Assembly (NCBI RefSeq): GCF_007176755.1
Contig: NZ_BJTV01000004.1
Span: 372,001-436,000 of the forward strand
Direction: 5' to 3'
From: Streptomyces sp. 1-11
GTDB taxonomy: Bacteria; Actinomycetota; Actinomycetes; Streptomycetales; Streptomycetaceae
DNA: 64,000 nt
Positions 30,454-48,381 of the stretch are shown piece by piece (the stretch's first letter is position 1; each line of letters begins with the position of its first letter). Made by a program: the position numbers and the translations under genes. The notes below the pieces were generated by a model. That model saw only the letters and a program-made list of their open reading frames with translations. It was not told where the DNA came from and ran no database searches.

Positions 30454-31983
30454 ATGGCAGACGACTACCTCGTACGCATCGGCAAGCTCATCCGTGACGC
30501 CCGGCAGCACCGTGGCTGGACACAGGCACAGCTCGCGGAGGCGCTCGGCACCAGCCAGAGCGCCGTCAACCGCATCGAGCGCGGGAACCAGAACATCAGC
30601 CTTGAGATGATCGCCCGCATCGGTGAGGCGCTGGACAGCGAGATCGTGTCGCTGGGCTACGCGGGTCCGATGCATCTGCGGGTGGTCGGCGGCCGCCGGC
30701 TGTCCGGCGCCATCGACGTCAAGACCAGCAAGAACGCCTGCGTGGCACTGCTGTGCGCCTCACTGCTGAACAAGGGGCGCACGGTGCTGCGCCGGGTGGC
30801 CCGGATCGAGGAGGTGTACCGCCTGCTGGAGGTGCTCAACTCCATCGGCGTGCGCACCCGCTGGATCAACGACGGCGTCGACCTCGAACTCGTCCCGCCG
30901 GCCGAACTGGAGATGGCGGCGATCGACGCCGAGGCGGCCGTCCGCACCCGCTCCATCATCATGTTCCTCGGCCCGCTGCTGCACCGCATGGACCGCTTCA
31001 AGCTGCCGTACGCCGGCGGCTGCGACCTCGGCACGCGGACCATCGAGCCGCACATGATCGCGCTGCGCCGGTTCGGCCTGGACGTCGCGGCCACCGAGGG
31101 CCAGTACCACGCCCAGGTGGACCGCGCCGTCCGGCCCGGCCGCCCGATCGTCCTGACCGAGCGCGGCGACACGGTGACCGAGAACGCGCTGCTGGCCGCC
31201 GCCCGGCACGACGGCGTGACGGTCATCCGCAACGCCTCCTCCAACTACATGGTGCAGGACCTGTGCTTCTTCCTCGAGGCGCTGGGCGTCAAGGTGGAGG
31301 GCATCGGCACCACCACGCTGACCGTGCACGGCGTGCCGAACATCGACGTGGACGTCGACTACTCCCCCTCCGAGGACCCGGTCGAGGCGATGAGCCTGCT
31401 GGCCGCCGCCGTGGTGACCGAGTCGGAACTGACGGTGCGCCGGGTGCCGATCGAGTTCCTGGAGATCGAGCTCGCGGTCCTGGAGGAGATGGGCCTCGAC
31501 CACGACCGGTCGCCGGAGTACTGCGCCGACAACGGCCGGACCCGCCTGGTCGACCTCACCGTCCGCCCCTCCAAGCTCGAAGCCCCGATCGACAAGATCC
31601 ACCCCATGCCCTTCCCGGGCCTGAACATCGACAACGTCCCCTTCTTCGCGGCCATCGCGGCGGTGGCCTCGGGCCAGACCCTGATCCACGACTGGGTCTA
31701 CGACAACCGCGCGATCTACCTGACCGACCTCAACCGCCTTGGCGGCCGCCTGCAGTTGCTGGACCCGCACCGCGTCCTGGTCGAGGGCCCGACCCGCTGG
31801 CGGGCCGCCGAGATGATGTGCCCGCCGGCCCTGCGCCCCGCGGTCGTCGTCCTGCTCGCGATGATGGCGGCCGAGGGCACCTCGGTCCTGCGCAACGTGT
31901 ACGTCATCAACCGGGGTTACGAGGACCTGGCGGAGCGGCTGAACTCGGTCGGGGCGCAGATCGAGATCTTCCGGGACATCTGA
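30454..31983 (+). CDS. XRE HTH domain fused to MurA-like enolpyruvyl transferase
   Basis: The 509-residue protein joins an N-terminal XRE/Cro-type helix-turn-helix (about 8-62: WTQAQLAEALGTSQSAVNRIERG) to a full EPSP-synthase/MurA fold (about 70-509). MurA landmarks are kept: the Lys-Asn pair in KTSKNACVALLC and the Cys loop LPYAGGCDLGTRTIEPH, which matches the PEP-binding/fosfomycin-target Cys of MurA. MurA transfers enolpyruvate to UDP-GlcNAc, the first committed step of peptidoglycan. The catalytic loop otherwise departs from the standard GARPVD, so the substrate may differ. From memory it is the SCO5998 counterpart. There is no ribosome site; leaderless translation is likely. Confidence 0.85.
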   Translation: MADDYLVRIGKLIRDARQHRGWTQAQLAEALGTSQSAVNRIERGNQNISLEMIARIGEALDSEIVSLGYAGPMHLRVVGGRRLSGAIDVKTSKNACVALLCASLLNKGRTVLRRVARIEEVYRLLEVLNSIGVRTRWINDGVDLELVPPAELEMAAIDAEAAVRTRSIIMFLGPLLHRMDRFKLPYAGGCDLGTRTIEPHMIALRRFGLDVAATEGQYHAQVDRAVRPGRPIVLTERGDTVTENALLAAARHDGVTVIRNASSNYMVQDLCFFLEALGVKVEGIGTTTLTVHGVPNIDVDVDYSPSEDPVEAMSLLAAAVVTESELTVRRVPIEFLEIELAVLEEMGLDHDRSPEYCADNGRTRLVDLTVRPSKLEAPIDKIHPMPFPGLNIDNVPFFAAIAAVASGQTLIHDWVYDNRAIYLTDLNRLGGRLQLLDPHRVLVEGPTRWRAAEMMCPPALRPAVVVLLAMMAAEGTSVLRNVYVINRGYEDLAERLNSVGAQIEIFRDI

Positions 31984-35856: not shown

Positions 35857-37017
35857 CTAGGCCGCGGGCGCGCCGGCCCGGTCGCGCCAGGGGATCCAGG
35901 TGGCCGACAGGGTGACGATCAGGGCCGACGCCGCGACCGTGGCCATGCCGAGGGTCAGCCCGGCCGCGCCCGCGACGAAGCCGATCAGCGCGGGCCCGGC
36001 CAGCAGGCCGGTCGTGCCCATCGCGGCGACCAGGGACAGCGCGTTCGAGCCGTGCCCGGCGGCGGCCACGTACACGCACGGGGTGACCGCGGCCGCGCCC
36101 AGGCCGACGCAGGCGAAGCCGAGCAGGGTGGGCACGATCCCGCCGGCGGTCAGCGCGAGGGCCAGGCCGAGGCCGGCCACGGCGCTGCCGGTGCGCACCA
36201 CGCGGGCGTCGCCCCAGCGGTCGCGCCAGCGGTCCGCGCGCACCCGGGCCAGCAGCATCATGGCCGAGACGACGGCGATGCCCAGCGGGGCCACCGCGGG
36301 CGAGGCCCTGACGACGTCCTTCAGGTAGAGCGTGGACCAGTCGTTCATGGCGCCCTCGGTGATGGTGCCGAACGCCATCGCGCAGCCCATGAGCAGCGTC
36401 TTCCCGGACGGTGCGGCGAGGCGGGCCCGCTTCCTCGGGGGCTCGGGACCGGGGTCGGTGTGCGGCGGCAGGCCGCGGCGCGCGGCGGCGAGCAGCAGGA
36501 GCAGCAGCGCCGCCGCCACCGCGAAGTGGGCCGGGACGGACGGGGTGAGGGCGGTGACGCCGGAGGCCAGGAGCGCGGCGGCGAGTAGGCCCGCGCTGAA
36601 GGTGGCGTGGAGCTGGGACATGGCGGTGCGGCCGTGGGCCGTCTCCAGGGCCGCGCCCTGCGCGTTCATCGCGACGTTCAGGCAGCCGACGGCGACACCG
36701 TCGGCGCAGACGACCAGCAGCGCCAGCGGGTAGTCCGGCACCACCGACAGGGCGGCCAGCAGCGCGACGAGCGCCAGCGCGGAGGCGAGGGACAGGCGCC
36801 GGGAGCCGAGCCTGCGCATCAGGTGGGCGACCAGCGGGAAGGAGGCCGCCGCGCCCGCGCCGCAGGCCATCAGCAGCAGCCCCACCTCGCCGGCGCCCAG
36901 GTCCAGCCGCGCCTTGAGCGCGGGGAGCCGGGCGGCCCAGGTGGCGTACTGCAGGCCGAGGAAGCAGAACAGCGCGGCGATGGACCACTTGGCGCGGCGG
37001 AAGCCGGAGTTCTCCAT
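35857..37017 (-). CDS. MFS transporter (exporter of the PhyH operon)
   Basis: This 386-residue protein has 12 hydrophobic helices and the major facilitator layout, with a charged central loop (about 190-210: PGPEPPRKRARL). LQYATWAARLPALK in TM1 and MAFGTITEGAMNDWSTLYLKDV in TM7 are typical of the YbjJ-like MFS subgroup. Its ATG overlaps the stop of the GNAT gene (TGATG), making it the last member of a five-gene coupled operon. It probably exports the operon's product or confers self-resistance; the substrate is not readable. It converges on the CsoR-family gene, with only a G/C palindrome (35767-35780) between. Confidence 0.85.
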   Translation of the reverse strand: MENSGFRRAKWSIAALFCFLGLQYATWAARLPALKARLDLGAGEVGLLLMACGAGAAASFPLVAHLMRRLGSRRLSLASALALVALLAALSVVPDYPLALLVVCADGVAVGCLNVAMNAQGAALETAHGRTAMSQLHATFSAGLLAAALLASGVTALTPSVPAHFAVAAALLLLLLAAARRGLPPHTDPGPEPPRKRARLAAPSGKTLLMGCAMAFGTITEGAMNDWSTLYLKDVVRASPAVAPLGIAVVSAMMLLARVRADRWRDRWGDARVVRTGSAVAGLGLALALTAGGIVPTLLGFACVGLGAAAVTPCVYVAAAGHGSNALSLVAAMGTTGLLAGPALIGFVAGAAGLTLGMATVAASALIVTLSATWIPWRDRAGAPAA

Positions 37018-37526
37018 CAGCCGGCCCTCCGGTGCGCGCCGGCCGCCACCCGCGCGGACATGTACACCGCGTCGTCGCCGTAGCCGGCGGGCAGCCGTGC
37101 CTCGGGGTGCGGCCGGTAGCCGTTGGCCCGCCAGAAGGCCTCCTTGCCGGCCACCGCGATCAGCGAGATGGTGCGGTGGCCGCGCGCGCCCGCCGCGTGG
37201 GTCAGGTGGCGCACCAGACGGCTGCCCAGTCCCCTGCGGCGCAGGGGCGCGCCGATCACGAGGTCGTGCAGGTGGAGGTTGGGCGACCGGTGGGCGGTCC
37301 GCTCCGGCCGGGTCAGGTCCGGGCAGCCGAACATCGGGTAGGGCAGGGCCAGTACGTAGCCCGCGACCCGGCCGTCGAGGTCGAGCACGAAGCTGGTGCC
37401 CGCCGAGGCGCGCGAGCGCAGGCCGGCCTCCCCCTCGGTGAGCGGGGTGCCGGCGTACGCGCCGGCCTCCAGGGCGGCGACCTGGGGCCAGTCGACCTCG
37501 GTGATGCCCCGTATCACGTCCGTCAT
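37017..37526 (-). CDS. GNAT-family N-acetyltransferase
   Basis: This 169-residue enzyme has the GNAT fold: SFVLDLDGRVAGYVLALP on strands 2-4, then LHDLVIGAPLRRRGLGSRLVRHL with the acetyl-CoA pyrophosphate-binding RRRGLGS, and a C-terminal FWRANGYRPHPE. It transfers an acetyl (or acyl) group from CoA to an amine. Within this operon the likely acceptor is an amine made by the upstream decarboxylase, or it may be a self-protection enzyme. It starts one base after the decarboxylase stop and overlaps the exporter start. Confidence 0.85.
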   Translation of the reverse strand: MTDVIRGITEVDWPQVAALEAGAYAGTPLTEGEAGLRSRASAGTSFVLDLDGRVAGYVLALPYPMFGCPDLTRPERTAHRSPNLHLHDLVIGAPLRRRGLGSRLVRHLTHAAGARGHRTISLIAVAGKEAFWRANGYRPHPEARLPAGYGDDAVYMSARVAAGAHRRAG

Positions 37527-37527
37527 G

Positions 37528-38709
37528 TCAGTGTCGTCCTTCCGGGCCGCGCGTGCAGACGCACGGCAGCGGGCGGATGCCGTTGAAGCCGCGGGTGGTG
37601 TAACTGGTGGCGTAGGCGCCGGCGGACAGGATCCAGACCGGGTCGCCGGAGGCCGCGTCGCGGGGGACGTGCGCGGGGTGCAGGCCGCCGCCGTAGGCGT
37701 CGTCGCTGTCGCAGGTGGGGCCCGCGACGACGGCGGGCACGCGGTCCCCGTCCGGGTGGGTGGGGAAGAGCAGCCGGTGGCTCACCTGGTCCATCTCGTA
37801 CAGGCCGTTGAAGCGGCCCACGCTGAGGTACAGCCAGCGGGAGCGGCCGCCGTCCGGCTGGGTCCGTTCGGTCAGGCGGTACACGTGCGCGCGGACGGCG
37901 CCGTGGTCGGCGACGAGGTGCCGTCCGGGTTCCATGACGAGGGCGAGCGGGCCGGCGGTGAGACCGCGCAGGCGCTCCATGCCCTCGCGGATCACGGTCA
38001 GGATCTTGTCCAGGGGCGGGTCGAGCGGGTGGCCGTGCCGGTCGAGGTAGCCGAGCGCGGGCAGGCCGCCGCCGAGGTTGACGTGGTCCGGCGCGATCCC
38101 CAGCCCGTCCAGCGCGACGAGCGCCTCGGCGAGCAGGTCGACGGCCTGCTGCCAGGCCTCGCCGGTCATCTGCTGGGAGCCGACGTGCACCGAGAGGCCG
38201 GCCGGGGTGAGTCCGCGGGCGCGGGCGGTGGCGAGGATGCGCACGGCGTCACCGGCGGAGCAGCCGAACTTGCGGTTCAGGCCCCACAGGGCGCCGTCGC
38301 CGCTGGTGGCGAGGCGGCAGAACACCGCGGCTCCGGGAGCGTGTTCGGCGATGGCCGTGACGTCCTGGAGGCTGTCGGTGGCGAAGGTCCGGACGCCGAG
38401 CCGGTGGGCTTCGGCGATGTCCGCGTCGGACTTGACGGTGTTGCCGTAGTGCACGCGGTCGGCGGGGACCCCCGTGCGCAGGGCCTGGCGGATCTCGTCG
38501 GGGCTCGCCGCGTCGAAGCCGGCGCCCCGGTCGGCCAGGCACCGCAGGACCTCGTCGACGGGGCAGGCCTTCAGGGCGAAGCGGACCCGGACGCCGGGCA
38601 GTTCGGCGCGCAGCCGGTCGAGCTGGCCCTCGATGCCGGCCAGGTCGTAGACGATGCGGTCGGCCGGGGCGCCGGCCAGTGCGGCGGCCAGCCGCGGGCC
38701 GGGTGTCAC
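37528..38709 (-). CDS. PLP-dependent fold-III decarboxylase (ornithine/DAP type)
   Basis: This 393-residue group IV amino-acid decarboxylase has an alanine-racemase-like barrel. The PLP Lys is in VRFALKACP (about residue 44), followed by HVGSQ, the phosphate-binding GGGLPALGY, EPGRHLV, the active-site Cys loop GPTCDSDDAY (about 330) and a C-terminal Tyr in GAYATSYTTRGFNG. This pattern fits ornithine, lysine or arginine-type decarboxylases better than LysA. It makes an amine by decarboxylating a basic amino acid or a modified one. The GTG start overlaps the DUF6271 stop by 4 bases. It probably supplies the amine core or building block of the operon's product. Confidence 0.88.
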   Translation of the reverse strand: MTPGPRLAAALAGAPADRIVYDLAGIEGQLDRLRAELPGVRVRFALKACPVDEVLRCLADRGAGFDAASPDEIRQALRTGVPADRVHYGNTVKSDADIAEAHRLGVRTFATDSLQDVTAIAEHAPGAAVFCRLATSGDGALWGLNRKFGCSAGDAVRILATARARGLTPAGLSVHVGSQQMTGEAWQQAVDLLAEALVALDGLGIAPDHVNLGGGLPALGYLDRHGHPLDPPLDKILTVIREGMERLRGLTAGPLALVMEPGRHLVADHGAVRAHVYRLTERTQPDGGRSRWLYLSVGRFNGLYEMDQVSHRLLFPTHPDGDRVPAVVAGPTCDSDDAYGGGLHPAHVPRDAASGDPVWILSAGAYATSYTTRGFNGIRPLPCVCTRGPEGRH

Positions 38710-40019
38710 GACGTCCCGCTTCCGGGCGCCGTGCCGCGGGCCGCGTCGACCAGCGCGGGCCAGGCCTCGGTGAGCCGGGCGAAGTCCTCGACGTCCCGGC
38801 GGGCGCGGTCCAGCAGTTCCTCGCGCCGTGGTGCGAGCCGCTCGGCGAACTCCTCGTAGCGTCCGCCGAGTTTGCGGTAGGCGGTGTCGATCCGGTCCAG
38901 GCGCCACACGTTCTCGGCGCGGTCGAGGCCGGTGCTCTCGCGCAGGAACTCCACGACCGGTTCGGCCCGTACGTGCTGCCGGCCGTCCAGGAGGCCGGCG
39001 CCGGCCGCGGCCATGCGGTCGTAGACGTGGTGGAAGTACAGCATCGACAGCAGGAACTTCACGAAGCGGGTCTGGTAGGCGAGGAAGCCCGTGTCGGTGC
39101 GGCGTTCGGGGGTGTGGAAGTTCTCGATGTGCCGGTTGTGCAGGACGCCGGGGAGCGTGGCGTCGTGGACCAGGTGGAGGAGGAAGTAGTCGCTGCCGAT
39201 GGTGTCGGTGGCCGGGGGCAGCGGGATGCGCTCGTAGACGTCGTGGTGGAGGGCGATGTTGCACATGTCCACCCGCATCGGGTCCACCAGGGTCAGCGTG
39301 GAGCGGTCCTCGGTGAAGGGGGTGGTGCCCGCTCCGGTGAAGGACTCCTCCACCAGCCGGCGCCTGTCCTCCGGCGAGCAGCCGGCGGGCGCCCACAGGC
39401 CGACGACGTCGTGGTAGATCCCCTCGTCGAGGCGGCGTATCCCGGCCACGTCGACGGAGAGTTCGCCGATGAAGGAGGCTCCGGCCAGGGACACCGGCCG
39501 GCCGGCGAGGTCCGGGGCGAGGTCGGTGACGGTGACGTGACCCGCGGCGTCGGCGGCCCGCAGGCCGAGCGGGACGAGCTCGTGGTGGACGGGGAAGACC
39601 TTCCGTCCGTGCCGCATCTGGTAGGTGCTGTCGGAGTCCCTGCGGTGCACCGACCGGCAGCCGAGGGCGGCGGCCAGCAGGAAGGCGCGGTCGGTGCAGG
39701 AGCCGTAGGAGACGCCGGCGGGGAGCAGGAGGTCGAGCACGCCGTCGGGGTCGGGCAGGCCGGCGCGCCGGATCGCGCGGCGCAGGAAGCCGGCCTGCGC
39801 GTCCTCGCCCAGGTGGTGCACGGTGACACCGGCGGCCGGCGGGAGCTGCGCGACCACGCGGGCGTGGGCGGCGCGGGTGCGGTCGTCGCAGGAGTCGAGG
39901 ATCAGCAACTGGACGTCGGCGCCGAAGTGCGCGGCCGCGTAGGCGGCTTCCTCGTGGACGGCGCGGATGGTGGCGGGGCAGGCCCGGTTGGTGGGCAGGC
40001 AGAGGCAGACGCGGTTCAC
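38706..40019 (-). CDS. DUF6271 family protein (glycosyltransferase-like)
   Basis: This 437-residue soluble protein starts MNRVCLCLPTNRACPATIRA, with VQLLILDSCDD as the next strand, which looks like the nucleotide-sugar-binding half of a GT-A Rossmann fold. A DxD-type metal motif, HRRDSDSTYQ, follows at about residue 130. I recognise it as the actinobacterial DUF6271 family, found in biosynthetic clusters without a proven reaction. A glycosyltransferase or other nucleotidyl-dependent role is inference. Later segments SDYFLLHLVHDATLPG and FLLSMLYFHHVYDR are helical. It overlaps both neighbours by 4 bases. Confidence 0.75.
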   Translation of the reverse strand: MNRVCLCLPTNRACPATIRAVHEEAAYAAAHFGADVQLLILDSCDDRTRAAHARVVAQLPPAAGVTVHHLGEDAQAGFLRRAIRRAGLPDPDGVLDLLLPAGVSYGSCTDRAFLLAAALGCRSVHRRDSDSTYQMRHGRKVFPVHHELVPLGLRAADAAGHVTVTDLAPDLAGRPVSLAGASFIGELSVDVAGIRRLDEGIYHDVVGLWAPAGCSPEDRRRLVEESFTGAGTTPFTEDRSTLTLVDPMRVDMCNIALHHDVYERIPLPPATDTIGSDYFLLHLVHDATLPGVLHNRHIENFHTPERRTDTGFLAYQTRFVKFLLSMLYFHHVYDRMAAAGAGLLDGRQHVRAEPVVEFLRESTGLDRAENVWRLDRIDTAYRKLGGRYEEFAERLAPRREELLDRARRDVEDFARLTEAWPALVDAARGTAPGSGTS

Positions 40020-41050
40020 GGCGCCCCCTGGGTGCCGGACCAGGAGTCCAGGCCGAGCAGTCTGCGCCCGAGCGCGTCGAGTTCGGCGGGACCGTAGCGC
40101 AGGGCCTCGGGCCGGCGGGCGTCGCCGAGCAGCGTCGGGTTCCAGTCGGGGGTGCTGAGCGTGCGCCAGGACTCGACGCGGGAGCGCCGCAGCTCGGTGT
40201 GCTCCTCAAGGGCGGGCATCATCGACAGGTACTGGACGGCCCGCAGGCCCCGTTCGGAGCGGTTGGGCGCCACTCCGTGCGCCAGCAGCCCGTTGAAGAT
40301 GAGCAGGTCGCCGGCCTGGAGGTCGGGGCGGACCACGGGGAACTCGGATCGGTCGGCCGCCGGGCGGACCGGGTCGCGGCCGGCCGGCTGGGCGAGGCGC
40401 CATTCCTCGAAGCGCCGGAACAGCTCCGGGGCGCACTGGAAGCCGCCGAGTTCGGGGCGGGTGTCGGTGAGCGCGATGATGCCCTGGACCCGCTGCGGCA
40501 GTACGGCGAGGGTGGTGTCGACGTCCCAGTGCAGCTCGATGTCGAAGCCCTCGTCGGTGGGCTCGATCAGGGAGCGGGAACGGGTGCCGACGTTGGGCGG
40601 GTTGAGGTTGAGCCGGTCGAGGGTGACCCACAGCTCCTCGCAGTCCCAGACGTCCACGAAGGCGTCGTGGACGCGCCGGGTCTGGCGGCTGTCCCAGATG
40701 AGCTGGTGGTGGTAGGCCTCGACGAAGCCGTAGATGTACAGGTGCCGGTCGAGTTCGGAGCGGAACTCCGGTTCCTCGTACCAGGTCTCGGGGCGGTCCG
40801 GGTCGAGGCCCTGGAAGTCGAGGGCGAGGTCGAGCAGGCCCTTGGCCTCGCCGGGGGTGATGGCCTCCCGGACGACGACGTAGCCGTAGGTCTGCCAGAA
40901 GGCGAAGTCCTCCTCGGACAGCACCCTCAGGGGCCGGGACTTCTCCAGGTCGCGCAGCGGGACGGGGGCGAGGTAGGTCTCGCCGTCCGCGCTGAAGTAG
41001 GGGCGGCCTGAGGCCGCCCGGTGGAGGTAGGGGGTGGTGGGCTGGTGCAT
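40016..41050 (-). CDS. PhyH-type Fe(II)/2-oxoglutarate dioxygenase
   Basis: This 344-residue oxygenase of the phytanoyl-CoA dioxygenase family has the iron facial triad HxD in IELHWDVDTTL (about 170) and the distal His in NGLLAHGVAPNRSERGLRAVQYLSM (about 263), where a following Arg would bind 2-oxoglutarate. Related enzymes hydroxylate free or carrier-bound amino acids. It is first in the operon and probably tailors the amino acid that is later decarboxylated. GGAG lies 7 bases before the ATG. The promoter contains TTGACA at 41113-41118 (minus strand) with a DasR-like site directly downstream. Confidence 0.87.
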   Translation of the reverse strand: MHQPTTPYLHRAASGRPYFSADGETYLAPVPLRDLEKSRPLRVLSEEDFAFWQTYGYVVVREAITPGEAKGLLDLALDFQGLDPDRPETWYEEPEFRSELDRHLYIYGFVEAYHHQLIWDSRQTRRVHDAFVDVWDCEELWVTLDRLNLNPPNVGTRSRSLIEPTDEGFDIELHWDVDTTLAVLPQRVQGIIALTDTRPELGGFQCAPELFRRFEEWRLAQPAGRDPVRPAADRSEFPVVRPDLQAGDLLIFNGLLAHGVAPNRSERGLRAVQYLSMMPALEEHTELRRSRVESWRTLSTPDWNPTLLGDARRPEALRYGPAELDALGRRLLGLDSWSGTQGAP

Positions 41051-41090: not shown

Positions 41091-41118
41091 GCTGGACTAG
41101 ACCAATTGAAGGTGTCAA
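41091..41118 (-). promoter_or_regulatory. promoter of the PhyH operon with embedded dre-like site
   Basis: On the minus strand TTGACA (41118-41113) is followed after 6 bases by ATTGGTCTAGTCCAGC (41106-41091), 13 of 16 matches to the DasR box. The core on the plus strand, TGGACTAGACCA, differs from the DasR core at one base. The box fills the -35/-10 spacer, an ideal repressor position. Confidence 0.7.
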
Positions 41119-41252: not shown

Positions 41253-42752
41253 TCAGCCCGCGACGACGGCCTCCGCGGCCGCCACGCCGCAGACGCGGGC
41301 GGCGCCGTGGGTGGCGATGTGCGCGGCGCCGCGCGGCGGGGCCTGCGGGACGCCCATCTCGACCACGACGGTGTCCGGGCGGTCGGCGAGCAGCGCGTCC
41401 ACGGCGGAGCCCATCCAGCCGTGCCGGTGCTCGTCGCGGACCACGGCGACGATCCGCCGGCCGCCCGCCGCGGCGAGGGCCTCGCGGCCCGCGCCGGGCC
41501 CGGTGAACGAGCCGGCCGTGCTGCCCGGCAGCAGCCGCGTCAGCTCGGCGGCCACGCCCCACGGCGTCTCGTCGCCGACGGCGATGTTCGGCGCGGGGTC
41601 GAACCGGGCGACGTACACCGCCTCCGTGACCGGCGCGGCACCGGCGCCGCGGGTCACGGTCAGCGCGCGGCGGGCCGCGGCCAGGCCGATCTCCGGTTCG
41701 GGCGCGACGGTCCCGGCGTCCTCGCGGGAGGCGGCCGTCCAGCGGGCCAGCTCCCGCACCCGCGAGGCCGCTTCGGCCAGCCGCTCCTCCGGCAGCTCGC
41801 CGGAGCGCACCGCGGCCACCAGCGCGTCGCGCAGGCTGAGCACGGTGCCCTCGTCGCACAGGCCGCCGCCGACGCAGATGGCGTCCGCGCCCGCCGCGAT
41901 GGCGAGGACCACCCCGTGCTCAAGGCCGTAGGTGCCGGAGATGGCGCGCATCTCCATGCCGTCCGTGACGATCAGGCCCTGGTAGCCGAGTTCGCCGCGC
42001 AGCAGGTCGGTGAGGACGCGCCGGGAGAGGGTGCCGGGGCGGTCCGGGTCGAGCGCGGGGACGAGGATGTGCGCGCTCATCACGGCCCGGCTGCCGGCCG
42101 CGATGGCGGCGCGGAACGGGGGCAGCTCCCGCGCGTACAGCGTCTCGGCGTCCACGTCGATGCGCGGCACCGCGTGGTGGGAGTCGACGTTGGTGTCGCC
42201 GTGCCCGGGGAAGTGCTTGGTGCACGCGGCGACGCCGGTGGACTGCAGGCCCTCGACCCAGGCGGCGGTGTGCCGGGCGACCAGGGCGGTGTCCGCGCCG
42301 AAGGCACGCACGCCGATGACGGGGTTGTCGGGGTTGGCGTTGACGTCGGCGGAGGGCGCCCAGTCGAAGTTGACGCCGCAGGCGGCCAGGCGCCGACCCA
42401 GCTCGCGCGCCACGCCCCGGGTGAGGGCGGGGTCGTCGACGGCGCCGAGCGCGTGGTTGCCGGGGAAGGAGGAGCCGGTGCGCACGTCGAGGCGGGTGAC
42501 GTCGCCGCTCTCCTCGTCGATGGCGACCAGCAGGTCGTCCCGCTCCGCGCGCAGTTGCGCGGTCAGTGCGGTGACCTGCTCCTCGGAGACGACGTTGCGG
42601 CCGAACAGGGCGACGGAGGCGAGGCCTTCGCCGAGCCGGCGGCGCACCCAGTCCGGGGCGGTGGTGCCGTCGAACCCCGGCTGCAGCACCGCGAGCGCGT
42701 CCCGGGTGAGGGTGTCCGGCCCAGTGGCGAGTGTGGTCATCGGGGGCGTCAT
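41253..42752 (-). CDS. GH3 beta-N-acetylglucosaminidase (NagZ/DasD-like)
   Basis: This 499-residue cytoplasmic enzyme without signal peptide cleaves imported chitobiose to GlcNAc. The NagZ-type signature KHFPGHGDTNVDSHHAVP (about 165-182) carries the Asp-His catalytic dyad, and the nucleophile Asp is in GLIVTDGMEM (about 265). A C-terminal domain (about 370-499) follows. Its ATG overlaps the dasC stop by 4 bases (ATGA); a second in-frame ATG at 42740 is possible because AAGGG abuts the first. It is the last gene of the operon, matching the dasD position in the S. coelicolor das locus (from memory). Confidence 0.88.
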   Translation of the reverse strand: MTPPMTTLATGPDTLTRDALAVLQPGFDGTTAPDWVRRRLGEGLASVALFGRNVVSEEQVTALTAQLRAERDDLLVAIDEESGDVTRLDVRTGSSFPGNHALGAVDDPALTRGVARELGRRLAACGVNFDWAPSADVNANPDNPVIGVRAFGADTALVARHTAAWVEGLQSTGVAACTKHFPGHGDTNVDSHHAVPRIDVDAETLYARELPPFRAAIAAGSRAVMSAHILVPALDPDRPGTLSRRVLTDLLRGELGYQGLIVTDGMEMRAISGTYGLEHGVVLAIAAGADAICVGGGLCDEGTVLSLRDALVAAVRSGELPEERLAEAASRVRELARWTAASREDAGTVAPEPEIGLAAARRALTVTRGAGAAPVTEAVYVARFDPAPNIAVGDETPWGVAAELTRLLPGSTAGSFTGPGAGREALAAAGGRRIVAVVRDEHRHGWMGSAVDALLADRPDTVVVEMGVPQAPPRGAAHIATHGAARVCGVAAAEAVVAG

Positions 42753-43579
42753 CCCTTCACGGCGCCGTCGGTCAGACCGCTGACAGCCTTGCGTTGCAGG
42801 AAGATGAACAGGATCAGGATGGGCAGTGCGAAAAGGGACGAGGCTGCCATGGTGGCGCCCCAGTCGTCGCCGAAGGCGGTCTGGAACTGGGACAGCCACA
42901 GCGGCAGGGTCTGCTTCTCGATGTCCTTGTTGAGGATCAGGACCAGCGGGAACTCGTTCCAGGCGGTGATGAAGCCGAACAGCGAGGTGGCCATCAGACC
43001 CGGCGCGAGCAGCGGGAAGATCACCCGGACGAAGGCCTGGGTGCGGGTGCACCCGTCGACCATCGCGGACTCCTCCAGCTCCTTCGGCACGGCGGCCACG
43101 TAGCCGCGCAGGGTCAGGACGGTCAGCGGCAGCACCATGACCGCGTAGAAGACGGTGAGCGGGACCAGGCTGTCGAGCATGTCGTTGTCGCGGACCAGCA
43201 TGTAGATGGCGATGACCATGACCTCCCAGGGCGCCATCTGCGCCAGCATGAAGGTCACGATGAAACCGCGCCGGCCCTTGAACCGCATCCGGGCCAGCGC
43301 GAAGGCGGCGAACAGGGCGATGACGAGGGACAGCAGCACCGCGCTGACCGTGACGGTGACGGAGTTGAGGACCAGGGTCCAGAAGTGGTCGGCGTCCACG
43401 GCCTTGGCGAAGTGGCCGGCCGTGACGTCGGTCGGGAACCACACCGGGTTCTCGGAGATGATGTCGCCGGTCGGCTTGAAGGCCGTCGCGAACATCCAGT
43501 AGACGGGGAACACGAAGCCGGCGAAGAGGATGACGGCGGTCGCGTTGGGCCAGATACGGCCGAAGACCGAGCGCTTCAC
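42749..43579 (-). CDS. dasC: chitobiose ABC permease DasC-like
   Basis: This 276-residue MalG-type permease has six helices. The EAA loop is ELEESAMVDGCTRTQAFVRVIFP (about 180-200) and the C-terminus is LQRKAVSGLTDGAVKG, typical of DasC and related CUT1 subunits. It pairs with DasB; the shared ATPase MsiK is not encoded here. The GTG start overlaps the dasB stop by 4 bases, so the two permeases are made in step. Confidence 0.88.
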   Translation of the reverse strand: MKRSVFGRIWPNATAVILFAGFVFPVYWMFATAFKPTGDIISENPVWFPTDVTAGHFAKAVDADHFWTLVLNSVTVTVSAVLLSLVIALFAAFALARMRFKGRRGFIVTFMLAQMAPWEVMVIAIYMLVRDNDMLDSLVPLTVFYAVMVLPLTVLTLRGYVAAVPKELEESAMVDGCTRTQAFVRVIFPLLAPGLMATSLFGFITAWNEFPLVLILNKDIEKQTLPLWLSQFQTAFGDDWGATMAASSLFALPILILFIFLQRKAVSGLTDGAVKG

Positions 43580-44574
43580 AGCTCGTCCTCCTCTTGCTTG
43601 AGCACCATGCGCAGGTAGTACGAGGTGATGACGAGCAGTACCACGATGGTCAGGAAGGAGATCGCCGCGCCGACTCCGAAGTGCTGGTTGCCGACGCCCT
43701 CGACGAAGGCGTAGATCGGCAGGGTCTCGGTGAGGCGGTCGGGGCCGCCCTCGTTGATCGCGAAGATCTGCGGGAACGCCTTGAACACCCAGATGACCTC
43801 GAGGAACGTCGTGGCGTAGAGGAACGGCCTGAGGAACGGGAAGGTCACCGAGGTGAAGCTCTTCCACGCGCCGGCGCCGTCCAGGGACGCGGCCTCGTAC
43901 AGCTCCCTGGGGATCGTGGTGGTGGCCGCGTACAGGTTGATCGCCACGAACGGGATCGACATCCAGACGATCAGCAGCGTGATCACGGCGAAGGTGGAGA
44001 GCTGGGAGCCGAACCAGTTGTAGTCGGCCATGGAGTGCCAGCCGAGCTTGTCCAGCACCCAGTTGACGACACCGAAGCGCTGCGCGAACAGCCACTGGTA
44101 GACGGTGGTGGCCGCGATGACGGGCATGGCCCAGGCGAGCACCAGGCCCACCAGGAGCAGCAGCCGCATCTTCCTGCCGAGGCGGGCGAGCAGCAGCCCG
44201 GTCAGGGTGCCGAGCAGCATGATCAGGACGACGTTGACCGCGGTGAAGACCACCGAACGGCCGACGACGTGCCAGAAGTCCGAACCGGTCAGGACTTCCT
44301 TGTAGTTGTCGCCGCCGTTCCACTCGGTGAGGTGCTGGATGAGCTGCCGCGGGTTGAGGTTCTGGAACGACAGCATGCCGTTCTTCACCAGGGGCCAGCC
44401 GAGCAGGATCAGTGTCGCCAGCAGCGCGGGCAGCAGGAGCAGATAGGGAGCGGCGGCGCCGCGGCGGGCGGCGGGGGCGGAACCGCCGCCCTCACCCCTC
44501 GGCGGCGCCGGCGCCCCGGCCTTGCGGACAGCGGGCTCCCCGGCCGTGTCCGTGCCTTCGGTCTGCACTGACAT
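43576..44574 (-). CDS. dasB: chitobiose ABC permease DasB-like
   Basis: This 332-residue MalF-type permease has a 45-residue Ala/Pro/Gly-rich cytoplasmic N-terminus, then six helices and the EAA loop ELYEAASLDGAGAWKSFTSVTFP (about 220-240). With DasC it forms the membrane channel for N,N'-diacetylchitobiose. A stable hairpin (44639-44664) lies between dasA and this gene, which would lower its expression relative to the binding protein. Confidence 0.88.
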   Translation of the reverse strand: MSVQTEGTDTAGEPAVRKAGAPAPPRGEGGGSAPAARRGAAAPYLLLLPALLATLILLGWPLVKNGMLSFQNLNPRQLIQHLTEWNGGDNYKEVLTGSDFWHVVGRSVVFTAVNVVLIMLLGTLTGLLLARLGRKMRLLLLVGLVLAWAMPVIAATTVYQWLFAQRFGVVNWVLDKLGWHSMADYNWFGSQLSTFAVITLLIVWMSIPFVAINLYAATTTIPRELYEAASLDGAGAWKSFTSVTFPFLRPFLYATTFLEVIWVFKAFPQIFAINEGGPDRLTETLPIYAFVEGVGNQHFGVGAAISFLTIVVLLVITSYYLRMVLKQEEDEL

Positions 44575-44673: not shown

Positions 44674-45951
44674 TCAGTTCTGCTGGGCCAGGCGCTTGTT
44701 GATCTCGCCCTCGACCTGCTTGGCGGCGGCCGCCGGGGACTTACCGTTCAGCACCGCGGTCATGTAGGACTTGATCGGGTTGGGGGTGTTCTCCACCGCG
44801 GCCCACTCGGGGATCAGCGGGGTGGTGCCGCCGGCCGCGGCGCCGGGAGCGGCGGCCTCGGCGGCGCCGTTGCCCTTGAGGTTGCTCTCCAGCGACTCCT
44901 TGTTCGGGATGACGCCGTTGAGCTTGGCGAGCTGGCCCTCGTACTGGTCGGACAGCGCGATCTTCAGGAACTCCTTGGCCAGGGCCTGGTTCTTGCTGCC
45001 CTGCGCGACGGCGAGGTTGGAGCCGCCGAGGAAGACGCCCTCGGGCTTGTCCGCGCTCTCGCCGGGGATGGTGAAGTAGCCGAGGTCCTTCTCGATGGCC
45101 TTGTTGGCCTGGATCGCCGTGCCGGCCTCCCAGCCCATGCCGATGAAGGCGCCGGTCTTGCCCTTGGCGAAGATCGTGGCCTGCTGCGGGGTGGCCTCGT
45201 CCTTGTCCTTGGGGGCCTTGGAGTAGGAGGCGTACTTCTTGTAGAGCTCCATGGCGGCGGAGACCTTGGGGTCGCCGAGGTTGGAGACGTACTTGTCGCC
45301 CTGCTTCTTCACCAGGTCGGCGCCCTGGCCGATGGTCAGGCCGTCGAAGAAGTACCAGTTCTGGCCGGGCAGGTACAGCGGCTCGGCGTCGGTCTTCTTG
45401 CCGATGGCGTCCAGGTCCTTGAAGAACTCGTCCCGGGTCTTCGGGGTGTCCTTGAGGCCGGCCTTGGCCCAGATCTTCTTGTTGTAGATGACGACGCGGT
45501 TGGCGAAGTACCAGGGAGCGGCGTACTGCTTGCCCTCGTAGACGGAGGACTGCGAGACCGACGGGGTCCAGTCCGAGCCGATCTCCTGCTTGAGGTCGCC
45601 CAGTTCGGCGAGGCCGCCGGTGGCCGCGTAGGCCGGGGTCTGGGTGTTGCCGACCTCGATGACGTCCGGCGGGTTGGACTCGGAGAGGGCGGTGGTGATC
45701 TTCTGCTGGATCCCGTCCCACTTCTGGATCTCGAACTTGAGCTTGGCGCCGGTCTTCTTCTCGAAGGCCGCCTGCACGTCCTTGGACCACTGCGGCGGCG
45801 CCGAGCCGTCCATCGTCCAGACCGTCAGGGTCTGGCCCTTGAAGCTGTCCGGTCCCGCGTTCTTGCCCGTGTCCTTGTCGTCGTCGCCACACGCCGAGAC
45901 GGAGACCATCATGCCCGCGATCACGATCGCGGCAGCAAGCTTGCGCTTCAC
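44674..45951 (-). CDS. dasA: chitobiose-binding lipoprotein DasA-like
   Basis: This 425-residue family 1 solute-binding lipoprotein has a signal peptide from the GTG at 45951 (KRKLAAAIVIAGMMVSVSAC), with the lipobox Cys at about residue 21. The mature protein has VWTMDGSAPPQWSKDVQAAF, NPPDVIEVGNTQTPAYAA and YAAPWYFANRVVIYNKK, as in DasA. It captures chitin dimers for DasBC. GGAGG lies 5 bases before the GTG. Upstream, TTGACA plus two dre-like boxes form its promoter. Confidence 0.9.
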   Translation of the reverse strand: MKRKLAAAIVIAGMMVSVSACGDDDKDTGKNAGPDSFKGQTLTVWTMDGSAPPQWSKDVQAAFEKKTGAKLKFEIQKWDGIQQKITTALSESNPPDVIEVGNTQTPAYAATGGLAELGDLKQEIGSDWTPSVSQSSVYEGKQYAAPWYFANRVVIYNKKIWAKAGLKDTPKTRDEFFKDLDAIGKKTDAEPLYLPGQNWYFFDGLTIGQGADLVKKQGDKYVSNLGDPKVSAAMELYKKYASYSKAPKDKDEATPQQATIFAKGKTGAFIGMGWEAGTAIQANKAIEKDLGYFTIPGESADKPEGVFLGGSNLAVAQGSKNQALAKEFLKIALSDQYEGQLAKLNGVIPNKESLESNLKGNGAAEAAAPGAAAGGTTPLIPEWAAVENTPNPIKSYMTAVLNGKSPAAAAKQVEGEINKRLAQQN

Positions 45952-46045: not shown

Positions 46046-46097
46046 AATGGTGTAGACCAGTACGGTGGAGCTTGGCCTAGACCTTTTTGAGTGTCAA
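46046..46097 (-). promoter_or_regulatory. dasA promoter with two dre-like boxes
   Basis: Box 1 (46046-46061, AATGGTGTAGACCAGT) matches 14 of 16 positions of the DasR box. Box 2 (46071-46086) has the core TGGCCTAGACC. On the minus strand TTGACA (46097-46092) is followed about 7 bases later by box 2, so box 2 lies in the -35/-10 spacer and box 1 just downstream of the start point. Confidence 0.75.
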
Positions 46098-46267: not shown

Positions 46268-47068
46268 ATGGCCACCGACGTCAGCAGCGCCCAGCACCCC
46301 ACGGGGGCGGCCGGCCGCACCGCGCGCGTGCCGAAGTACTACCGGATCAAACAGCAGGTCCTGCAGATGACGCAGGCCCTCGAACCCGGCTCCGCGATGC
46401 CCGCGGAGCGCCTGCTCGCCGTGCGGCTCGGCACCTCGCGCACCACCGTCCGGCAGGCGCTGCAGGAACTGGTCGGCGAGGGGCGGCTCGACCGCATCCA
46501 GGGCAAGGGCACCTTCGTCGCCCAGCCCAAGCTGTACCGCAGCCTGCGGCTCACCTCGCACACCGAGGACATGCGCGCCCAGGGCCTGGAGCCCGCCTCG
46601 CAGGTGCTGGACATCGGCGAGGTGCCCGCGGACGCCCGGCTGTCCGCCCTGCTCGGCATCGGCGCCGGCGAGCGCGTGCTGCGCATCGAGCGGCTGCGGC
46701 TGGCCAGCGGCGACCCGATGGCCATCGAGACGACCCACCTGTCCGTGCGGCGCTTCCCCGGGCTGCGGCGCTCGCTCGCGACGTACCCCTCGCTCTACAC
46801 CGCCCTCGCCGAGGTGTACGGCGTGCACCTCGCCGAGGCGGACGAGACCATCGAGACCTCGCTGTCGACGCCCCGCGAGGCCCATCTCCTCGCCACCGAC
46901 GTCGGCCTGCCGATGCTGCTGCTGTCCCGGCATTCGCGGGACGCCGAGGGCACTCCGGTGGAGTGGGTGCGCTCGGTGTACCGGGGCTCGCGCTACAAGT
47001 TCGTCGCCGCGCTGCGCCGCCCGCCGGCCGGGCCGGCGTCCCCGGTGTCCGTCCGGGAGAACGGGTGA
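46268..47068 (+). CDS. dasR: DasR-like GntR/HutC regulator (paralogue)
   Basis: This 266-residue regulator has a GntR winged helix (about 22-90: [37 protein letters not shown]) and a UTRA/HutC effector domain (about 105-255: [44 protein letters not shown]). This is the DasR plan, in which GlcN-6-phosphate-type effectors release DNA. Compared with the S. coelicolor DasR sequence I remember, the N-terminal half is clearly diverged, while true DasR orthologues are nearly identical. I therefore take it as a second, local DasR. The ATG has GGAAGG 5 bases upstream. Its stop overlaps the next gene by 4 bases. Confidence 0.85.
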
Positions 47069-48381
47069 CGTTCCCGCACCCCTCCGGACCCGGACCGCAC
47101 CCGCCGGCGCCCGGGACCGGCCTCGCGGCGGCGCTGGTGCGGGCGCGGGAGGCCGCCTGCCTCACCCAGGACGAGCTGGCGGTGCGCTCGGGGCTGAGCG
47201 TGCGGGCCATACGGAACCTGGAGACCGGGCACACCGCCCGGCCGCGCAGGCAGTCGCTGGTGCTGCTGGCCGAGGCGCTCGGGCTGGCGCCCGCCGAGGC
47301 GCGGCGGCTGTTACGGCTGCCCCGGGGCGGCGGGCACCCGGCCGGTCCCGCCGCGCCGCCCGGCTCACCGGGGCCTGACGGCCCCCTCGCCCCGCACGCC
47401 GCCGCGGCGCCGGCCGAACTGCCCCCGGCGCCCCGGCACCGCCTGGCCGGCCGGGAGGCGCTCGCGGCCGCGCTGGCGGCCGGCCTGCCCGGCCGGGGCG
47501 CACCCGCGGTGGTGGTCGGGCCGCCGGGCGCCGGGAAGACCGCCCTGGTGCTGCGCACCGCGCACGCGGCACGCGACCGGTTCCCGGACGGCCAGGTCTA
47601 CGTCGACCTGCATCCCGCCTCCTGCCGTCCCGTCACCTCCGACCAGCTCGTCCAGCGCGTCCTGCGGTCCCTCGGCCGCGGCGCCGGCGTCCGCGGCCCC
47701 GAGGAGGCGCGGGCCCGGCTGCGGGACGCCCTCGCCGGACGGCGGGTGCTGGTGGTGCTCGACAACGTAGTCACCGAGGCGCAGGTGCGTCCGCTGCTCG
47801 TGGACGGCGGGCGCAGCGCCGTCCTGGTCGCCGCGCGCCGCGAACTGCCCGCCCTGCCGGGGCGGTCGGGTCACCGGATCGGCGTGCTCGGCCGGCCGGA
47901 GGCCCGCGAGGTGCTGGAGGACCTGGCGGGCGCGGCCCGGATCAGGGGCGACCGGCCGGCCGCGCTGGACATCGTGCGGTACTGCGGCGGGCTGCCGCTC
48001 GCCCTGCACCTGGCCGGGCTGTGGCTCTCGGCCCGCCCGCACCGGTCGCCGCGCGACCTGGCCGACCGGCTGGCGGACGAGCGGGACCGGCTGGACACGC
48101 TGTGCGTCGGGGACCTCTCGCTGCGGGCGAGCGTGGCCGCGTACCACCGCCCACTGCCGCCCCCGCTCAAGACCGCACTGCACGAACTACAACATCTGGC
48201 AGGCGAGTTCGGGGTGGAGGATATTCCGGCCCGGGTGGCGGCGTCCCGGCGGCTCGCCGTGGACCTGCTGGAGGAACTGGCGCACCGCCAGCTGGTCCTG
48301 GCCGGCGCGCCGGACCGGGCCGGGCGGGTCCGCTACCGGCTGCACGAGGCGGTGCGCCTGTACGTGGCGCACGGCGGGTGA
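47065..48381 (+). CDS. XRE HTH / NB-ARC ATPase regulator
   Basis: This 438-residue protein has an N-terminal XRE helix-turn-helix (about 25-75: [23 protein letters not shown]), a Pro/Ala-rich linker (about 95-130), then an NB-ARC/STAND ATPase with P-loop [14 protein letters not shown] (about 150), Walker [11 protein letters not shown] and GLPLAL near residue 315. The protein ends after a winged-helix part with no TPR or other sensor repeats, so it is a truncated AfsR-like architecture. The GTG start overlaps the dasR-like stop (GTGA), so it is co-translated with it. It may add a second control layer to the das or adjacent biosynthetic genes. Confidence 0.8.

Follow-up and report, generated by a model that had tools for sequence, protein, structure and literature searches.

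A conserved oxygenase–DUF6271 operon beside the das genes of Streptomyces and its predicted response to N-acetylglucosamine

The stretch of DNA analysed here (the window, 64,000 nucleotides) comes from Streptomyces sp. 1-11 (assembly GCF_007176755.1, contig NZ_BJTV01000004.1, positions 372,001 to 436,000 of the forward strand). It carries an operon of five genes for a PhyH-family 2-oxoglutarate (2OG)/Fe(II) oxygenase, a DUF6271 protein, a pyridoxal 5'-phosphate (PLP) decarboxylase, a GNAT N-acetyltransferase and a transporter of the major facilitator superfamily (MFS). We propose, and give roughly an even chance to, a specialised-metabolite operon that is repressed by DasR and responds to N-acetylglucosamine (GlcNAc), leading to a glycosylated, decarboxylated, N-acetylated and exported metabolite. 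The proposal starts from what is observed directly: the genes, their co-conservation, two alternative finishing sets, the fold prediction of DUF6271, an enrichment of DasR-type sites and linked genes of glycoside hydrolase family 3 (GH3). In the proposed route the oxygenase would hydroxylate a small, probably amino-acid-like substrate. DUF6271, as a metal-dependent GT-A glycosyltransferase translated together with the oxygenase, would add a sugar, perhaps GlcNAc, from a nucleoside diphosphate (NDP)-sugar, probably on that hydroxyl. The fold-III PLP enzyme would then decarboxylate the bulky amino acid, the GNAT protein would acetylate an amine and the MFS protein would export the product. The operon thus read probably yields a new exported small molecule during chitin feeding.

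The five genes are found on the minus strand of the window:

40016..41050, minus strand: PhyH-family 2OG/Fe(II) oxygenase, core gene 1; ATG start with GGAG shortly upstream; Pfam PhyH, E 3e-12
38706..40019, minus strand: DUF6271 protein, core gene 2, predicted GT-A fold and likely an NDP-sugar-dependent glycosyltransferase; GTG start; PF19787, E 1e-223
37528..38709, minus strand: fold-III PLP amino-acid decarboxylase, predicted type-A tailoring; Pfam Orn_Arg_deC_N, E 1e-42
37017..37526, minus strand: GNAT N-acetyltransferase, for type-A tailoring or possibly self-protection; Pfam Acetyltransf_1, E 7e-11
35857..37017, minus strand: MFS transporter, presumed exporter from the assumed direction of transport; Pfam MFS_1, E 4e-22

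Overlaps of 4 bases are observed between oxygenase and DUF6271 and again between DUF6271 and decarboxylase, followed by a 1-base gap before the GNAT gene and a 1-base overlap between the GNAT and MFS genes. An earlier note on this DNA, made from the letters alone, had described five touching or overlapping genes forming a single coupled pathway with no polyketide synthase (PKS) or nonribosomal peptide synthetase (NRPS) core. Coordinates and overlaps are confirmed, a single coupled pathway with wide conservation is supported, and no NRPS or PKS modules (adenylation, condensation, thiolation or ketosynthase) are present among the five window genes. The DUF6271 protein scores 743.5 bits against PF19787 (cut-off 25). 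None of the five proteins has a specific model in NCBIfam, the matches of the decarboxylase and the GNAT protein lying far under the cut-offs and the other three having none. When the window genes are compared with those of three relatives, ratios of nonsynonymous to synonymous substitution rates are 0.15-0.47, indicating purifying selection. The scan for promoters and terminators gave zero sites, though few would be expected by chance.

A scan of the genome collection gave 149 DUF6271 relatives; the tblastn counts refer to the best 80 loci among them. Gene clustering also took in further loci from genomes and plasmids, and 105 loci in all have a close DUF6271, among them places fetched twice (for example, L002 is the window, L005 equals L101, and L086 and L088 are one species); genes in the relatives were called with a simple open reading frame (ORF) caller. 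By tblastn the oxygenase is found in 80/80 related loci and the complete five-gene set in 75/80. Five loci are incomplete: L064 and L069 end at a contig edge, L079 is without an MFS match, and L068 and L085 belong to the type B described below. The MFS gene of L055 lies on the opposite strand. Gene clustering finds the oxygenase and a close DUF6271 together in 105/105 loci, so the two probably act together; the overlap of the pair measures 19 nt in 68 of 105 cases and 4 nt in 26, as placed by the ORF caller. L089-L093 hold only a distant DUF6271 (about 25-27% identity), and the oxygenase is absent there. The family occurs in 89/295 genomes of the window's genus (three of these with distant copies only) and, beyond the genus, in 56/197 genomes of the order, 13/394 of the class and 5/396 of the phylum. 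An in-frame TGA in some DUF6271 matches was considered as recoding and set aside: the match overhangs the stop at the extreme C-terminus, an explanation based on relatives such as L008 and L010 (ORF end 9290, match to 9305) and not on every flagged genome.

The five-gene set is a real operon, and the conserved unit is wider, with a DasR-type site in front and a GH3 gene beside most type-A relatives. Its conserved core is the oxygenase and DUF6271 only; the other three genes, downstream of this core, make up one finishing set out of two that occur as alternatives. The five-gene unit of the earlier note is co-conserved, but its core is smaller than the unit, and the linked DasD-family gene had been missed. 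In type A, found in most loci including the window, the core is followed by decarboxylase, GNAT and MFS genes. In type B, found in 14 distinct loci, it is followed by genes for a protein with a condensation domain and for an MFS protein unlike that of type A. Divergent from these lies a homologue of the amino acid:carrier-protein ligase Bll0957, which resembles aminoacyl-tRNA synthetases (E 4e-21), and nearly all type-B loci have a small carrier-protein-like ORF without a Pfam match (in L096 it was missed by the gene caller). Type-B relatives are like the known Bll0957-type ligase systems in having both the ligase homologue and the carrier-protein-like ORF, unlike the type-A operon of the window, which has no such homologue. 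In type B the core product would be aminoacylated instead, by the ligase, the carrier protein and the condensation domain. Two trees, one of DUF6271 (support 0.997) and one of the oxygenase (support 1.0), both built with L001-L005, L088 and L108 omitted, recover type B as monophyletic. One oxygenase–transferase core is hence served by two unrelated finishing sets. Streptomyces clavuligerus carries a type-B locus, after which a split transketolase pair is found (L088:20007-21650). On plasmid pF1D10B of strain F1D10 the oxygenase–DUF6271 pair stands without either finishing set.

The operon lies directly downstream of dasABCD, with dasR 5 kb off. The features of this neighbourhood are:

41091..41106, no strand assigned: dre-like operator of the DasR type, GCTGGACTAGACCAAT, placed 40 bases before the start codon of the oxygenase; differs from the published dre at 3 positions
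41253..42740, minus strand: DasD-type GH3 beta-N-acetylglucosaminidase, directly upstream of the operon; Glyco_hydro_3, E 3e-70; GH3 beta-N-acetylglucosaminidase in the PDB, E 2e-75
42749..43579, minus strand: DasC-like ABC permease; Pfam BPD_transp_1; same order in das-linked relatives
43576..44574, minus strand: DasB-like ABC permease; Pfam BPD_transp_1
44674..45951, minus strand: DasA-like solute-binding protein; Pfam SBP_bac_1, E 6e-43
46046..46061, no strand assigned: operator of the DasR type in the dasA–dasR intergenic region; differs from the published dre at 2 positions
46268..47068, plus strand: DasR, GlcNAc-responsive repressor, divergent from dasA; DasR in the PDB, E 8e-115

The published dre consensus (PMC4398421), with up to 3 mismatches allowed, gives 4 sites in the window against 0.24 expected. 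Relatives were scanned with a slightly looser dre, ANTGGTCTAGACCANT, at no fewer than 11 of 14 matches (at least 11/14), over 600 bp upstream of the oxygenase plus its first 60 bp, and controls were treated alike. DasR-type sites are found at 65/93 oxygenase upstreams and at 14/700 other genes of the same loci. The 93 loci leave aside L088 (a duplicate of L086), L108 (a duplicate of L009) and loci with less than 600 bp upstream; the 700 controls exclude operon-family and das-family genes and genes starting less than 2.5 kb from the oxygenase start. In a separate count by type, the site is present in 15/15 type-B entries (14 distinct, one species twice) and in 51/79 type-A entries. Such enrichment predicts that the operon is likely under DasR control. 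According to PMC12370203, dasABCD encodes a chitobiose importer and an intracellular beta-N-acetylglucosaminidase under DasR. The das system thus adjoins the operon in the window, shares its operator type and has a DasD paralogue linked to the operon in relatives; unlike the operon, it serves chitobiose import and hydrolysis and has no oxygenase, transferase or exporter. Das-linkage is found in 22/80 loci. It may have arisen more than once, since the oxygenase tree places the das-linked pair L046/L048 away from the remaining loci of this kind. In L024, L026 and L027 a putative DasR-cluster gene, a DasD-type GH3 gene and the operon are adjacent, and dasABC was not found between them. Immediately downstream of dasR in the window, with a 4-base overlap, a regulator-like protein with helix-turn-helix and NB-ARC ATPase domains is encoded (47065-48381).

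A GH3 gene of the DasD family accompanies the operon in most type-A loci. Linkage was judged in the 80 loci within 2.5 kb upstream of the oxygenase, five of them (L011, L032, L034, L075, L077) being too short to judge. A GH3 gene stands beside the oxygenase in 59 of the 73 evaluable non-type-B loci, divergent in 33 and co-directional in 26 (22 of these das-linked), and in none of the 14 distinct type-B loci. Since the gene goes with type A and not with type B, it would relate to the type-A end product and not to the core step, which suggests that DasD-type enzymes recognise this product or are its target. The GH3 genes retain the catalytic motif KHFPGHGD...DSHH. A tree of 79 GH3 proteins, holding operon-linked and das-type copies only and with its sides set by the midpoint root, separates a paralogue group of 40, all beside the operon (support 0.995), from 39 DasD orthologues including that of the window (0.989). 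In nine of 13 other operon genomes a paralogue-type copy, 57-61% identical to the window GH3, lies beside the operon and a closer DasD homologue lies elsewhere or adjacent; among the remaining ones, G696 has a DasD-type copy beside the operon and three have none there. As a control from the same genus, 25/25 genomes that lack any DUF6271 match have a single DasD-range copy (57-64% to the paralogue query), the next being at most 48%. In L125 the order is a DasA-like gene, dasB, dasC, dasD, the paralogue and then the five genes. The idea of a strictly operon-bound paralogue was rejected: with three sequences added to the tree, an unlinked copy of G598 falls among the paralogues, and the G687 sequence, which is not beside its operon, shifts to the paralogue side of the midpoint root. 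A third DasD-family GH3, besides the linked paralogue and DasD, is found in G598 (L133:5848-7461).

These GH3 data raise the possibility that the type-A product is a GlcNAc mimic, either an inhibitor of beta-N-acetylglucosaminidases or a GlcNAc-capped amine that is imported by DasABC and cleaved by DasD; the paralogue would then be a resistant target copy or a hydrolase of the product. The placement of most operon-side GH3 proteins apart from the DasD orthologues speaks for it, as do the additional copy in nine genomes with no second DasD-range copy in the 25 controls, the intact catalytic motif and the lack of linkage to type B. Yet no paralogue copy was found in the window genome, where its loss in the window lineage is the likeliest explanation, 14 non-type-B loci have no GH3 gene beside the oxygenase, and membership of the group does not depend strictly on the operon (G598, G687). 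The paralogue may also serve chitobiose use only, and we infer the inhibitor chemistry, so this mimic is possible though doubtful. Rather unlikely, in our estimate, is its extension to a weapon of the chitin niche. Here a GlcNAc-like type-A product, made when DasR senses GlcNAc and then exported, would enter rivals via the chitobiose transporter and act on, or be released by, a DasD-type glucosaminidase; the DasD paralogue and the acetyltransferase would protect the producer, and DUF6271 would found a new transferase family on a sugar-mutase fold.

The glycosylation step of the DasR-repressed pathway depends on DUF6271. An AlphaFold2 model from a 38-sequence alignment (mean predicted local distance difference test 91.3, predicted template modelling score 0.92) predicts a GT-A fold. 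In VIA-align against the PDB its top matches are to MtdL (Z 23.1-23.8 over 312-314 residues, root-mean-square deviation 3.3-3.5), followed by rice UAM2 (Z 20.8), MpgS (16.8), and GpgS and MGS (about 15). Foldseek also places MtdL first (E 2e-8 to 1e-7), then GlfT2, TarP and GpgS. The GT-A fold for which the earlier note had suggested looking is thus supported by the model, but the nearest folds are the NDP-sugar mutases MtdL and UAM2 and not a classical glycosyltransferase. At the level of sequence, the DUF6271 profile gives only chance-like matches to PDB sequences, and hhalign against GT75 is not significant, although the DXD region was paired in one run and the His-x-Arg region in a second. 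MpgS, GpgS and MGS transfer a sugar to a small acid acceptor. They share the GT-A fold with DUF6271 (Z about 15-17), but the Z scores are clearly lower and there is no sequence match in the PDB search; to our knowledge they have no oxygenase partner. Human LH3 (PLOD3) combines a 2OG lysyl hydroxylase with GT-A sugar transferases, and it hydroxylates and then glycosylates. It appears among the Foldseek matches at rank 42 (E 2.5e-3) and is alike in that a 2OG oxygenase works with a GT-A transferase; it differs in acting on collagen lysine as a single polypeptide, whereas two small bacterial proteins are found here.

MtdL is the GDP-sugar mutase of A201A biosynthesis, and its working residues are named in PMC9937993. 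We matched residues by motif, not by superposition, using an actinobacterial RGP as a bridge together with four distant DUF6271 relatives (about 26% identity). The search with PF03214 (RGP), made solely for comparison sequences, gave 0 matches in 99 genomes of the order and 2 in 296 of the phylum. In this way HRRDSD (DXD 128-130), Asp277, His294 and Arg296 of DUF6271 correspond to the DXD, the base, the Mn ligand and the phosphate-binding arginine of MtdL (roles as given in PMC9937993). RRDSD is present in the DUF6271 of 105/105 relatives, and the four distant relatives retain the matched residues as far as they are covered, with Arg296 lost in one and the N-terminal part missing from one. The essential Arg159 of MtdL corresponds to Val144 by a shared FP motif, and its Arg257 to Thr273, a motif-anchored match only. 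The GT75 mutases (MtdL/Hyg20 and plant UAM) share with DUF6271 the GT-A fold with C-terminal helices over nearly all of its length, and motif matching finds counterparts of their DXD, of the histidine that binds Mn and of the base aspartate. They differ in sequence, with 9-16% identity when aligned by structure; their autoglycosylated arginine and the one that binds the substrate are apparently not conserved in DUF6271; and the close DUF6271 family, unlike MtdL and UAM, is always paired with the oxygenase.

The closest folds would fit a pyranose/furanose mutase of NDP-sugars, with the operon making or using a furanosyl donor, and MtdL and UAM2 clearly stand out (Z 20.8-23.8 against 16.8 for the next). 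Against such a mutase are Val144 and Thr273 at the two arginine positions, as placed by motif, and the lack of a second transferase in the five-gene set that would use the furanosyl donor; we consider it improbable. As the metal and nucleotide motifs are kept and the mutase arginine apparently is not, a glycosyltransferase is likelier than a mutase, with moderate confidence only because the arginine mismatch rests on motif and not on superposition. A distant DUF6271 homologue in L091 (2633-11825) is found among DegT-type aminotransferases, a GT2 glycosyltransferase and an asparagine-synthase-like protein, surroundings which suggest another sugar or aminocyclitol-like cluster.

For the remaining enzymes the evidence comes from motifs. 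The Pfam matches of the oxygenase (PhyH) and the decarboxylase (Orn_Arg_deC_N) exceed their cut-offs. The iron triad of the oxygenase, HWD...H[GN]V, is present in 105/105 relatives. Against the PDB its profile search gave one weak match (E 0.08) and the single-sequence search one doubtful match, to an unrelated protein. The decarboxylase is nearest in the PDB to lysine/ornithine decarboxylases (E 2e-33). GP[TS]CD is found in 86/86 relatives and the PLP lysine in 85 of 87 alignment rows, the remaining two being gaps. The DDG stretch is replaced by WLYLSCGKFNGLYE or variants in 86/86 relatives, so that the aspartate for the side-chain amine is not kept; this is presumably Asp332 of ornithine decarboxylase, which we take to bind the side-chain amine of the substrate and to sit in the DDG stretch. 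For this reason the enzyme was not classed with the ornithine and lysine decarboxylases. It should act on another substrate, and an amino acid that is bulkier or modified would agree with this. In Agrobacterium plasmid pDG3-1c (L113:6665-8951) the gene of an oxygenase homologue (42% identity) overlaps an ORF of 459 aa which is GT-A-like by eye (DxD-like NDIDCC), with carbamoyltransferases and a glycosyltransferase as neighbours. This is possibly a second, unrelated oxygenase–transferase pair: the ORF was tried as a DUF6271 relative and rejected, having no match to Pfam or to the DUF6271 profile. On a plasmid of Streptomyces sp. NBC_01431 (L115:5532-15166) a 46% oxygenase homologue occurs with a radical SAM protein, two carbamoyltransferases and an MFS transporter.

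The gene content taken alone would agree with the minimal scheme of the earlier note, in which an amino acid is hydroxylated, glycosylated, decarboxylated, acetylated and exported with no special tie to GlcNAc. That scheme leaves the enriched DasR-type sites and the linked GH3 genes unaccounted for, and we find it quite improbable. An accessory catabolic or detoxifying, non-biosynthetic route for chitin-derived or modified amino sugars would suit the dasABCD adjacency in 22/80 loci and the DasR-type sites, but it is highly improbable given a presumed exporter with no importer of its own, the patchy occurrence (89/295 genus genomes) and a type B that looks biosynthetic with its ligase, carrier protein and condensation domain.

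Several points weigh against the GlcNAc-responsive pathway proposed here. No DasR-type site is present in the stretch scanned in 28/93 loci, and in the das-linked relatives, the window's own group, 4/22 have one (L006, L007, L020, L046), so the operon there would need to be read from the das promoter. The GlcNAc induction hinted at in the earlier note is strengthened by the site 40 bases before the first start codon and its recurrence in most relatives. The GH3 gene is not linked in 14/73 evaluable non-type-B loci and 14/14 distinct type-B loci, and a GlcNAc-containing product is thus not required. For DUF6271, the nearest fold is a mutase, the arginine loss is judged by motif and the GT75 profile comparison is not significant. 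The AlphaFold2 model of the oxygenase is poor (49.3 on the same local measure) and was not used, and PhyH enzymes catalyse other oxidations and halogenations too. The chemical steps, the sugar, the order of steps, the control by DasR and the activity of the product are all points that we infer from the features above.

All of the enzyme classes are known. In the open-access literature, with subscription papers and MIBiG outside the search, we found no description of DUF6271/PF19787 or of its role, of the gene set or of its regulation, in line with the earlier note, which knew of no characterised pathway with this set. DUF6271 is present in about three in ten sampled genomes of the genus, yet no description of it was found in the literature searched. 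GlcNAc is a signal linking chitin feeding to antibiotic production in Streptomyces. The operon offers a testable product of a GlcNAc-tied pathway, which would assign a function to DUF6271. Elsewhere in the window, at 30454-31983, a domain of the EPSP-synthase/MurA type is fused behind a helix-turn-helix domain.

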